This document shows, piece after piece, positions 15,173-20,279 of a stretch of 64,000 nucleotides of DNA. This DNA is from Sordaria brevicollis. Its lineage: Eukaryota; Ascomycota; Sordariomycetes; Sordariales; Sordariaceae. The translations under genes were made by a program, and so were the position numbers. The DNA lies in assembly GCA_033439795.1 (NCBI GenBank), contig JAUTDP010000006.1, positions 1,426,001 through 1,490,000 on the forward strand, read 5' to 3'. How positions within the stretch are numbered: the stretch's first letter is position 1; each line of letters begins with the position of its first letter. Below the pieces are notes generated by a model that saw only the letters and a program-made list of their open reading frames with translations, was not told the origin of the DNA and did no database searches.

Positions 15173-16375
15173 AGTAGTCGCCTTTCTTAGCCATCGTCAC
15201 ATTCTTTCTTTTTCTTTTTTCTTACTTTGGATCAAGGCCTCCTCTTTTTGGGATGGGAATGACTTTTTATGATACCCCCTTAACGCTGCAAGAAAGAAAG
15301 TTTTGCATCATGACCTTCCAGTTGTGTTTATGTTTACGGTTTCCTGGTTTTTTTTCTTGGCTTCAACAAGGGGGTATTATTGCAAAAAGAAGGTCATTTT
15401 AGGTTTCTGGGATGACAGGATAGAAGGAAAAGAAGGAAAGGGGAGGCTACGATCATGGGTTTTCATTTTGATTTTTCATTTTCCAAAATGTTGGTTTCTT
15501 CGGTTGGATCGGTTATCATATATCAGCGGGCGGCGTTCCGGTGTCAAAAGCTTTGGGTGGGTTGGTTCAAACCGGGGGCCCCGCCAGTCGACATTGTTCG
15601 GTTCTGGTTGCGCGGCTCGGCTTGATGGGTGGAAAGATGGAAGGATGGATGGGTTGAAAATAGAAGGATTGGGCGGCCTTGCCTGTCTGTTTTTGCTTTG
15701 GGTGTTTCCGGGTGTCAGGCCTATACCATTTTGTGGGGTGGGCGTTGACATGTAGCATTCATCATCGGAGGAAGAAGGACAAAGGATGGAAAGGCATGGA
15801 TGGCATGGAAGGCGGGATGTATACCACCACGGCAAGGCCTACCTACCTACCACATTTAGACGTTTCGAAGGAAACGAAATCTCCACTCTGCATAGACACA
15901 ACAAGCAGAAAAAAACAATTGAAATGGTACCAATACTCTGAAGTTCAATTTGCATCTGAAATGTTCTTGTATTCCTGATGAAGCCCCTGAAAAATTTTTA
16001 AACCTGCCTCACCCATTACCATGTATCCGTTTCCACACAATATTCCTACCCTTAGCTAACCCAAAGCTCTTTCCACCTTCAACATCGTAAGAACATAGAA
16101 GATAATGAAAAGGGTGGTAGTAAAAATGACTAGAGGAAAGTCTAAAGCGTAATCACTTGATTCTCAGGTATGGCTCAGACACTAGGGCAGCAAGGAAAAA
16201 AAAGGGAAAGCCCAGTCCGCTTGGACCAAAGCTTCGATAATAATGAAAAGAAGAGGCACTCGCCTCACGATGACAAAGAGATGGATGGGAGGGAGAGGGA
16301 GACAATGGACACTTGTCTAGAAAACAAAGGAGAGTTAGGGAAGTGAGTAACGGCGAAGAGAATAACAAAGGAGAG
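15173..16375. other. 3' flank of PPR gene, no gene seen
   Basis: About 1.2 kb with T-rich 3'-UTR-like sequence just after the PPR stop, then mixed sequence. Several short open frames, none convincing. Purine bias grows from about 16190 toward the satellite. Confidence 0.4.
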
Positions 16376-16675
16376 GACAAAGAGGATCAGAAGATGGAAA
16401 AGAGAAGAGGAGAGGGGAAAGGAAGGAGAAGAAGGAGAAGACGAAGAAGATGATGAGGGAGAGAGCGGAAAGAGAAAGGAGAATGGAAAGCAGAGGGAAT
16501 AGGAGAGGGAAAAGGAGAGGGAAAAGGAGAGAGAAAAGGAGAGAGAAAAGGAGAGAGAAAAGGAGAGGGAAAAGGAGAGGGAAAATGAGAGAGAATAGGA
16601 GAGGGAAAAGGAGAGGGAAAAGGAGAGGGAAAAGGAGAGGGAAAAGGAGAGGGAAAATGAGATGGAAAACTTGAA
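16376..16675. repeat. Purine-strand region with 12-bp satellite (GGAGAGGGAAAA)n
   Basis: About 300 bp in which the + strand is nearly all purine. From about 16497 to 16670 it is a tandem array of roughly 14 copies of a 12-mer, with variants GAGAGAGAAAAG and GAGGGAAAATGA. On the minus strand it reads as a Phe-Ser-Leu-Ser repeat frame, which is a by-product of the repeat. Polypurine tracts of this length can adopt triplex structures and slip in copy number. It lies 170 bp beyond the 3' end of the micro-exon unit. Confidence 0.9.
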
Positions 16676-16846
16676 GAAACCAGTGTGAAAGTCCAGATAT
16701 GTAGCATCCAAGCCGCTCGGGCTTAACGTAGGGGGGTTCGCGTCGACGTTCTTGTCTCCCGTAAGGAGTAGGGTAGTTGATCCCGCTCGGCCGGTCGTTC
16801 GTTCGGTCGTTCGAGCGGTCGGCGTATCGGCGCGATATCGTCGATC

Positions 16847-19114
16847 TTAATCGTAGCTAAATGAACCTATGGATGACGGTATGTTGACCTGTTAGCATCT
16901 CTTCCAGTGATACATAGGATGGGGGGAGGGGGGAGACAACTTACCTTCCCCCGTAGACGGGGTTATTCGATGAGTGGGTACCTATAACTCGTTAGTTTAG
17001 TAGAAGGGGATCTACTTACCTGTGATCTATCTAAAGCTATGGTCGGTAAGTATGCTTGTTCGTTCGGTTTTCTAGGAAAAGTAGTTAGCTTACCAAAGAG
17101 GGGAAGAAGCAGGACGTACCTCAATAATCTCTTTGTTCTCGGTGAACCTAAGGGAATGGGAGGGAGGGTTCGAGTCCAATGTCTATCGTCGTTCGACCTA
17201 CAAAGTGATTAGCTCCCTACAGTGGGGGTGGAATAACTTACCGCTGATGTGAAGTAATGGGGGATGGCTCGAGGACGTCGGACCTAGAAGTGATTAGCAA
17301 ACCCAAAATCGAAAGAAGCCTTACCTCAGACAAGGAGTTGGAGTTTGTGCTATACTTTATGTTGTGTTCGGACCTGAAACTCAGTTGTTAGCTCTACTAC
17401 ACGGAGGGCAAATAGCTTACCTATGCCTGGACTGTTGAACCCCGTCGCCCTAGAAGATATGGTTAGCTTATCAACTAGGAGGGGGGGGTTACTTACCTGT
17501 AGAGCAGTACAAATTGGTTTTGGTATCGGTCGGTTCCTAAAAAGTGCTTCTTTGTTACCTTGCTAAAGCGGGGAGGGGTTGACTTACCTGGTGTACCTAT
17601 GCGTTCGGTTGGCTTTTAGTGTTTGCTGATCGGTGCTAGAAACTATCGTTAGCCTTGAAGGGAGAGGGAAATGACTTACCTTGTGTCTTGATCGAGTGAT
17701 TCGGAAGTGATTCGTTCGACCTAAAGACCGGAAGTTGGCTTGAAGATGGGAGGGGGACTTACATGTAAATTGGGCGTTAAGGATGCTTCGAGATTGGTTA
17801 ATCGAGAGTCGGAAGAAGTTCAGATCGCCGTTCGAAGTCCGGATAAAATCGAGTTCGGGATGTGTTGGGTAAAATCGCTTTTCGCTCTGTGAAGATGTTA
17901 GTAAACTTTGGGAATGGGGTTTGACTTACTTTGATGATCAAAAGAAGGCGTTTCGGTTCGAAGTCGCGGTCGGGGCCGGGATAAAAATTGGACGCGGTCC
18001 TAGAATGCTGTCAGTTTGCAAAAGAAGGGTGTCAAGTTACCTTTTGAATAATGAGCCGCTTAAAGCATTGGGATGAAGGTCGGCCTAGAAGAAGTTAGCG
18101 GTCAAGTCGGGAGTAGGGTGGACTTACCTGCTATAATATCTCGGTGGAAGCGGATAGGAAGGGCGTTGACCTAGAAAGCATTAGCCTTAACGTGAGGGAG
18201 TAGTTGACTTACCTGAGATAAGATACCGCGATGTAATGCAGTCCTAAATGTCGTCGTTAGTTCTCAAGACAACGGGAATGACTTACCTCTTATGGTCCAA
18301 TTGTATGACGCGCTCGATGCTGTGGTCGTTCATCTAGAAAAGCTGTCAGCCACATTGAAAGGGGGTGGTCCACTTACCTGCAGACTGAGGATCAAGTTCT
18401 TTATGTATCGGCCGGTATGCTTCGGCCTAGAGAGAAGATTAGCTTTGACACATGGAGGGGACTGACTTACCTATCTTTGCCGTGCTGGAGTGGAAACCTG
18501 TGAAGAACTTGTTAGCTGCCGACAATGGGGTGACTTAACTTACCTGCCATTATAGACTCGGGGAAGTTTTCCTAGAAGAGACTGTCAGCAGTAAGAGGGG
18601 AGAGGGGGTTGACTTACATATTGAGTGTTGCTTCGGTATAGCGAGACCTAGAGGAGTAGTTAGCGTAAACCGTGAGTAGGGGAAAACTTACCTAGAGGTA
18701 GCAATACCTCGGTGAGGAAGGGCGGTACTCGTCTCTTGGATACGTTTGGCTTGATGTAATCGTCTAGAGAAATACGGTTAGCGAAAGAGGGGAGAGCGCT
18801 CGACTTACTTAGTAATGATCGTACGGTTGGAAGTGTTCGTGAGGGTGTCCTAGAAAAACCGTTAGCTGCAAAGGTTAGGGAAGGGAGACATACCTGTGAG
18901 AATGAATTGAGTAACTTCGACTTGGTCCGGCAGACATGATTAGCTTAGTCCACAAAGATGGGGTGGAAAGGGGCTTGGTGGTACTCGAGTAACTAGTACT
19001 AGGCAGACTCGGTTCGAAGACGTGGATATCGAGTGGTGCCTGTAAATGATTGTCAGCTTCGACTCGATATGCTGCAAGTTCCGGATCGATGGAAGTTCTT
19101 TTTTTGATACTCAT
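16847..19114 (-). other. Micro-exon gene: about 23 tiny exons, 22 very short introns
   Basis: Introns (plus coordinates): 16867-16944, 16982-17019, 17072-17119, 17198-17241, 17284-17324, 17374-17420, 17450-17496, 17537-17587, 17636-17679, 17721-17762, 17887-17929, 18000-18040, 18085-18127, 18171-18212, 18244-18286, 18334-18377, 18427-18470, 18498-18543, 18572-18617, 18648-18691, 18764-18808, 18850-18893. Nearly all read GTAAGT, a C-rich tract, GCTAAC or GCTGAC, then CTAG. Internal exons are 27-124 nt, mostly 28-50. A plausible start is ATG 19114 (MSIKKRTSIDPELAAYRVEA...), with 73 codons in exon 1. A plausible stop is TAA 16847-16849 in the last exon. The frame is open in exons 1-4, 5-12, 15-19 and 20-23, but breaks at exon 4/5 (TGA across the junction), around exons 12-15, and at exon 19/20. 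I recognise no family. It may be a protein gene with alternative exons, a decayed gene or a spliced non-coding RNA. That it is spliced is much surer than that it is coding. Confidence 0.75.
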
Positions 19115-19857
19115 CTGTAATATTCTCAAAGTCGGTTGTGAGTTGTTGATGTTGAAGTGATGTTCTCGATGTGGCGCCTGATGAACTTCTCGAAAACTTC
19201 CAGAAACACGGAGGGGACCACAGACATTTATACGCAAGGCTTCCCTGAACAATGTGGGAGTCTACCGTCAGCCTCTCCCGTGAACAATAGCTTAGTTCTC
19301 GAACGGAACTTGGTTGAAAACAAAGAGTGTCTGTCATGTCTTCGTCCGGGGAAGCGTGCCGGGCTTTATGGGCCATGTTCACTCAATGCTTCCAAAGAAA
19401 CCATTGGCTGGGAATTTCACGACTGAAGAACCGGAACAAACTTCACTTTCCCCGGCCATTGTGAGCTATTGGGAGCTCGCGGGTGTGGCTTTTATTGTTT
19501 CTCGGAAGCTGCATCATGTTTTCCCGGCTTTTATCGAGTACCGGATAGTGATACCGAGCCGGACTCAGGTCTTCGATTTCAGCGGGAGCAAAGATTTGAT
19601 CAACGCACGACACCAGGTCTTCCGGTATTTCGCGGTAAGTTGTCCCAGACAAAAGATTAGGTAGGGGTTCATCGAAGTGTTGGAGGAGACATGAAGTCGG
19701 AAGTAATACAATGCGCCTTGTACGGGCGGCCACTAGTTGCATGTAGATGGGAAGAACAGCGCACGCTCTTACATTCCGCCCAATTCAATTCGGTAGCAGG
19801 AAGCAAGATATGCAAAAAGGAAGGCATGAATAAGGAAAGTCAAAAGTTAAAAACAAG
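19115..19857. other. Upstream flank of the micro-exon unit
   Basis: About 740 bp containing the likely promoter and leader of the minus-strand unit. The exon-1 frame stays open upstream of ATG 19114 to about 19252 without another ATG. Nothing else is recognised. Confidence 0.35.
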
Positions 19858-20179: not shown

Positions 20180-20279
20180 TGACAAGAGTGGGATTCGAAC
20201 CCACGCCCTTTCGGACTGCGAGTCTCGAGTTTCGAGAGAAACCTGAACACAGCGCCTTAGACCGCTCGGCCATCTTGCC
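20180..20279 (-). tRNA. tRNA-Leu(CAG) with ~20-nt intron
   Basis: Minus-strand cloverleaf. The acceptor stem GGCAAGA pairs with TCTTGTC (discriminator A). The D-arm region carries GGCCGAGCGGTCTAAGG (A box). The anticodon stem CTGTG pairs with CGCAG. The loop begins TTCAGG, giving anticodon CAG. About 20 nt (TTTCTCTCGAAACTCGAGAC) interrupt the loop after position 37, the usual place for a nuclear tRNA intron. A class II variable arm is followed by T-arm GTGGGTTCGAATCCCAC (B box). 3' CCA is not encoded, as normal in eukaryotes. Confidence 0.93.

Follow-up and report, generated by a model that had tools for sequence, protein, structure and literature searches.

A dense array of 22 predicted minimal introns in Sordaria brevicollis, with exonic motifs suggestive of a spliced and possibly non-coding RNA gene

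Does a run of very short, evenly spaced introns on one strand of the Sordaria brevicollis genome mark a genuine gene, and would such a gene be read for a protein or for its RNA? We examined the run within a window of 64,000 nucleotides (contig C24, 1426001–1490000), whose positions are used throughout (Table 1). From 18893 to 16867 on the minus strand, 22 consecutive introns with textbook fungal signals are predicted from the DNA sequence. The donor is GTAAGT in 17 introns, the branch-like site is GCTAAC in ten and GCTAAT in four (CTRAY in 20), CCC is found within 21, and the 3′ end is TAG in 19 (CTAG in 13) and CAG in three. Our recount confirmed the first-pass annotation in its 22 minus-strand introns with repeated signals, 21 of them 38–51 nt long; the last is 78 nt long, and its acceptor is ambiguous, an earlier AG being possible only 4 nt past the branch site. 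The exons had been described as mostly 28–50 nt, which applies to 15 of the 21 internal ones (range 27–124 nt, median 43 nt). These are the many consecutive very short exons that characterise micro-exon genes (MEGs) and bicycle genes, and the intron density is 10.9 per kb (22 in 2.03 kb). By eye, exon 1 (18894–19114) also contains an intron-like stretch with a C-rich tract and GCTAAT; it has neither a good donor nor a good acceptor and is possibly a dead intron.

Table 1 Predicted features of the intron array and its flanks (window positions).
Feature	Position	Strand	Basis
Array, 22 introns and 21 internal exons	16867..18893	-	Splice-signal chain
Presumed TATA-box-like GTATAAAT, ~115 nt 5′ of first ATG	19226..19233	-	Sequence
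Heat-shock-element-like pair of TTCNNGAA, spacing 3	19187..19205	-	Sequence; control sites do not support function
Exon 1 from first ATG; bears most of open frame	18894..19114	-	
Intron 1, 44 nt	18850..18893	-	
Exon 2, 41 nt	18809..18849	-	
Intron 2, 45 nt	18764..18808	-	
Exon 3, 72 nt	18692..18763	-	
Intron 3, 44 nt	18648..18691	-	
Exon 4, 30 nt	18618..18647	-	
Intron 4, 46 nt; exon 4/5 junction forms TGA (codon 122)	18572..18617	-	
Exon 5, 28 nt	18544..18571	-	
Intron 5, 46 nt	18498..18543	-	
Exon 6, 27 nt	18471..18497	-	
Intron 6, 44 nt	18427..18470	-	
Exon 7, 49 nt	18378..18426	-	
Intron 7, 44 nt	18334..18377	-	
Exon 8, 47 nt	18287..18333	-	
Intron 8, 43 nt	18244..18286	-	
Exon 9, 31 nt	18213..18243	-	
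Intron 9, 42 nt	18171..18212	-	
Exon 10, 43 nt	18128..18170	-	
Intron 10, 43 nt	18085..18127	-	
Exon 11, 44 nt	18041..18084	-	
Intron 11, 41 nt (GTAACT)	18000..18040	-	
Exon 12, 70 nt	17930..17999	-	
Intron 12, 43 nt	17887..17929	-	
Exon 13, 124 nt; single open frame, differs from frame of exons 1-12	17763..17886	-	
Intron 13, 42 nt	17721..17762	-	
Exon 14, 41 nt	17680..17720	-	
Intron 14, 44 nt	17636..17679	-	
Exon 15, 48 nt	17588..17635	-	
Intron 15, 51 nt	17537..17587	-	
Exon 16, 40 nt	17497..17536	-	
Intron 16, 47 nt	17450..17496	-	
Exon 17, 29 nt	17421..17449	-	
Intron 17, 47 nt (GTAAGC)	17374..17420	-	
Exon 18, 49 nt	17325..17373	-	
Intron 18, 41 nt (GTAAGG)	17284..17324	-	
Exon 19, 42 nt	17242..17283	-	
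Intron 19, 44 nt	17198..17241	-	
Exon 20, 78 nt	17120..17197	-	
Intron 20, 48 nt (GTACGT)	17072..17119	-	
Exon 21, 52 nt	17020..17071	-	
Intron 21, 38 nt	16982..17019	-	
Exon 22, 37 nt	16945..16981	-	
Intron 22, 78 nt; acceptor ambiguous	16867..16944	-	
Last exon, first 102 nt; 11 CGA in first 101	16765..16866	-	
C/T-rich 12-bp minisatellite, 16.2 copies, 3′ of array	16475..16669	-	

The array was compared, using a simple hand-set splice score, to both strands of 21 control stretches from elsewhere in this genome, 209,140 bp in total. At the lowest threshold, the longest intron chain had 22 members at the locus, three in the control and two in the rest of the window, while at the highest threshold 18 members were retained at the locus versus at most two. 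The exceptional intron density and uniform signals reported initially were therefore borne out by a chain of 22 against no more than three in control DNA. Searches of the whole 53.08-Mb assembly (27 contigs) agreed: a donor/branch/next-donor pattern had 11 matches, seven of them at the locus (reversed pattern, one match) and the four others being single sites on other contigs. A strict intron pattern had 21 matches, four here and 17 elsewhere that were 48–58 nt long, and its CTAG and C-rich variants had 11 and 15 matches, respectively, with five at the locus in each case. No other intron cluster was found by these genome-wide patterns. As a sequence pattern, the predicted intron array is thus confirmed to be real and not a product of chance. 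As a side observation, two near-identical 71-nt stretches fitting the donor/branch/donor pattern (C7:599027 and C26:2958864) are probably a dispersed repeat.

The suggestion that the array was born by tandem duplication of an intron–exon unit did not hold up, as no pair of exons or introns exceeded the shuffled maximum. The best exon pair scored 13 (shuffled maximum 14) and the best pair of intron interiors 12 (shuffled maximum 12), so that none stands out as a duplicate. Mean pair similarity was above that of shuffles for both exons (6.8 vs 6.35) and introns (6.0 vs 4.7), which the shared motifs and C-tracts described below would produce. Queries with unspliced DNA, spliced DNA and the public protein (see below) returned this locus alone from its own genome, i.e. 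no paralogue. On this sequence comparison, recent tandem duplication of units is not supported, and an old duplication may still lie behind the array.

We then considered the coding capacity of the spliced exons, which had been read as those of a micro-exon protein gene. After removal of the 22 introns, none of the frames stays open throughout. The one from the ATG at 19114 continues for 121 codons, until the exon 4/5 junction forms a TGA, and meets five stops over exons 1–22 (codons 122, 264, 271, 296 and 334). Three-base periodicity was absent from the spliced exons (chi2 6.4, p 0.38); for 20 length-matched pieces of known coding sequence, taken from the window, chi2 was at least 24.8. It was also absent from exon 1 (p 0.37; 86% of 70 known 221-nt coding pieces reach p < 0.05) and from exons 1–4 (p 0.50); exons 5–11, one of four blocks tested, gave p 0.007. 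Codon usage with free frame switching yielded no significant signal (P 0.24 and 0.08), and the internal exon lengths are neither symmetrical nor of the same phase, leaving a remainder of 1 after division by three in ten cases, 0 in six and 2 in five. The protein reading is weakened by these results, while the anatomy itself is real and very unusual.

An alternative explanation is that the locus is a fast-evolving orphan micro-exon protein gene in which skipped exons or alternative acceptors keep the frame, perhaps in many isoforms. Stops are indeed depleted in the frame of the first ATG, with five observed versus 12.8 ± 3.1 expected from exon shuffles preserving dinucleotides (P 0.002 with 1000 shuffles, 0.0055 with 2000; best of three frames, 0.004 and 0.0125, respectively). 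Without exon 1, the depletion gave P 0.04 (best of three frames, 0.085). The 121-codon opening over exons 1–4, which has a TATA-like site upstream, was also longer than in most shuffles (P 0.008), the exons beat shuffles when only stops and frame switches were scored (P 0.0025–0.005), and a shift of frame lets exons 12–13 be read as ‘FYPGPDRDFEP..LDFIRTSNGDL’. Dynamic programming yielded a 22-intron model that is open throughout, but only with exons skipped or acceptors taken late, and 6.7% of 150 shuffles did as well or better. Moreover, a public gene model exists: B0T20DRAFT_479206, a hypothetical protein of 254 aa [Sordaria brevicollis], maps letter for letter onto the locus. It has 14 introns, four of them identical to ours, shares 11 donors and 11 acceptors with the array, and keeps its frame open by dropping whole exons. 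Against these points stand the missing periodicity and codon bias, the asymmetrical exon lengths and the lack of protein relatives in the searches described below, and we consider an orphan protein gene unlikely. UAG-to-UGG RNA editing is known from Neurospora and Fusarium. Such editing was rejected as a means of opening the frame, since the five stops in exons 1–22 are four TAA and one TGA, with no TAG among them.

The claim that no family can be recognised stood in so far as no relative was found, but the locus already had the automatic gene model named above. No homologue beyond B0T20DRAFT_479206 was found in protein searches limited to exact-word, similar-length relatives, which would miss a sister-species gene not annotated as a protein, and the 121-aa open reading frame (ORF) likewise had no homologue in the protein search. 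No Pfam family was above the cut-off (FANCA_interact, 18 vs 27 bits, on a composite translation). The Rfam gathering search of the window gave a single match, a tRNA at 20180–20279, and hence no known RNA-gene relative of the array. A snoRNA host gene is not indicated either, as no snoRNA was detected in the window by Rfam and the introns are too short. The spliced RNA was not more structured than its shuffles (−279.8 vs −294.4 ± 8.8). The tRNA gene itself (minus strand) has an apparent intron, lies ~1 kb upstream of the array and was missed by ARAGORN in bacterial mode.

The early stop raises a further alternative, namely that the locus produces a short-ORF mRNA (121 aa) with a very long 3′ UTR, whose 18 introns would deposit exon-junction complexes, so that nonsense-mediated decay could target it in a switchable manner. 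The position of the first stop, at codon 122 with 18 introns downstream, is what such a transcript would have; however, exons 1–4 are without periodicity and the 121-aa product without homologue, which makes this explanation improbable. Similarly, several frame breaks together with a residual open frame could be the mark of an intron-rich protein gene that is decaying into a pseudogene. We consider this very improbable, as the splice signals are better than usual rather than worse, and periodicity, which is expected to fade slowly, is absent. Overall, a non-coding transcript is favoured without certainty, and a short coding exon 1 is possible.

The exons are also distinct in composition. Motifs were counted over 1344 exonic nt (including 101 nt of the last exon) and compared to 280 length-matched control pieces. 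CGAAC occurred 15 times in the exons (control mean 1.2, maximum 6) and never in the 1005 nt of introns; ACCGA occurred 13 times (control maximum 6; introns 0) and CGA 66 times (control maximum 47; introns 7). The triplet was present in 21 of 23 exons versus six of 22 introns, and 13 of the 22 exons that follow an intron had it within their opening 12 nt, compared to 6.1 ± 1.7 for random inner windows; none of 4000 random draws reached 13. It was not tied to one codon position (24, 20 and 22 occurrences, respectively). At a scale of 300 nt, other places in the window exceed the array in the density of CGA triplets alone (23 vs 16), and it is therefore the 5-mer and the position that bear the argument.

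The introns differ in turn from 70 strong introns elsewhere, which are scored candidates and not proven introns: 9–18 nt from the donor they carry a C-rich tract (C fraction 0.57 vs 0.25), they contain CCC in 21 of 22 cases versus 14 of 70, and they are shorter (P 2e-7). Exons and introns alternate every ~44 nt and yet differ sharply, so the force that separates them must see exons and hence operate in the course of splicing or afterwards. Because the motif respects the junctions despite this rapid alternation, we infer that the target of selection is splicing or the spliced RNA, and not the DNA. The switch in composition also supports the predicted junctions themselves and lends indirect support to transcription and splicing of the array.

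Taken together, the sequence evidence points, with about an even chance of being right, to a spliced RNA gene that is most likely not protein-coding and is selected for splicing and for the exonic motif. Upstream of the first ATG lies GTATAAAT, a presumed TATA-like site, and RNA polymerase II would start near it, at ~19230. Strong donors and branch sites favour efficient intron removal. Each ~44-nt intron would be recognised across itself through strong U1 and branch signals; this intron definition, proposed from the outset for the array, fits both the 44-nt introns and published EST data that argue for intron definition in ascomycetes (PMC2397502). An exon-bound factor, perhaps of the SR type, may read CGA(AC) immediately downstream of each 3′ splice site and thereby prevent the skipping of very short exons. 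This is just the place where exonic enhancers act. The resulting RNA would measure ~1.3 kb or more, and splicing would load it with exon-junction complexes and the motif-binding protein. As a guess, this RNA may work by being spliced and protein-loaded, as a scaffold or sponge for a splicing or RNA-binding factor. A bolder version, which we put forward tentatively and regard as rather unlikely, is that the act of splicing is itself the product: selection would favour a non-coding transcript, with its 22 minimal introns of hyper-consensus type and its exonic CGAAC code, that captures and loads splicing factors or exon-junction complexes (a spliceosome/SR-factor sink or scaffold) and is possibly induced by stress.

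In multi-exonic lncRNAs of human and fly, exonic splicing enhancers are described as being under selection (PMC4338330). The array resembles these in that its exons differ in composition from its introns and are seemingly selected for splicing motifs instead of codons; it differs in belonging to a fungus and in packing 22 introns into 2 kb with ~43-nt exons and ~44-nt introns. The many very short consecutive exons without sequence homologues recall schistosome micro-exon genes (PMC10526429) and aphid bicycle genes (PMC9168663). However, both of these code for proteins, the former with introns of up to 5 kb and the latter with exons sharing one phase, while the array has introns of ~44 nt, mixed phases and unsupported coding. 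The microexon of Trichoderma Xlr2 (PMC11121469) is likewise a very small exon of a related filamentous ascomycete and is functional, although it is one regulated exon of a known protein.

Introns may also be the functional part of a non-coding RNA, as in the S. pombe lncRNAs whose introns are read by Pir2/ARS2 (PMC7229227). By analogy, the transcript of the array could be an lncRNA that acts on chromatin, its introns drawing in splicing factors and the silencing or RNAi machinery in cis; many introns in a non-coding-looking transcript would suit such a role. The S. pombe case involves cryptic introns, whereas the array is a long series of strong, near-consensus ones, and we attach little probability to this explanation.

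If the predicted spliced RNA is transcribed, its intron density would be far above its surroundings, while in the related N. crassa 23 lincRNA genes (1.6%) are reported as spliced (PMC5738166). Those lincRNAs are non-coding transcripts of the same fungal family, and few are spliced, unlike the predicted RNA of the array. The splice mapping in that study used a minimum intron of 50 bp, so introns like those described here would have been missed. Splicing of fungal lncRNAs is in itself nothing new: according to a review, more than 40% of Botrytis lncRNAs have introns, although fewer than coding genes (PMC12566771). Among the literature matches listed, from which subscription journals are mostly absent, there was neither a fungal micro-exon array nor a paper on this locus. 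As 20 of the 22 array introns are shorter than 50 bp, similar loci could escape elsewhere. Gene finders force such loci into proteins, as B0T20DRAFT_479206 illustrates by dropping exons to hold a frame. A transcribed array would be genetically tractable and would allow one to test how many introns affect a transcript that needs no translation, whether intron definition operates at ~44 nt next to ~43-nt exons, and whether exonic splicing motifs are in use in ascomycetes.

On the promoter side, the pair TTCNNGAA-N3-TTCNNGAA occurs at nine places in 53 Mb, one of them here (reversed pattern, four). A Pfam scan of ten ORFs at six of the eight other pair sites revealed no chaperone; one of the remaining two sites has no ORF of 110 aa. 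A heat-shock promoter was rejected, given that the other pair sites do not mark chaperone genes among those scanned. One other pair site sits within a trehalose-phosphate synthase/phosphatase ORF. On the 3′ side, a 6-mer of the unit of the minisatellite (16475–16669, same strand) is shared with eight of the 22 introns and two of the 23 exons. Beyond it, at ~16318–16345 on the minus strand, CCTAAC ... TTTTCTAG looks by eye like another 3′ splice-site end, and a further intron spanning the minisatellite is conceivable.
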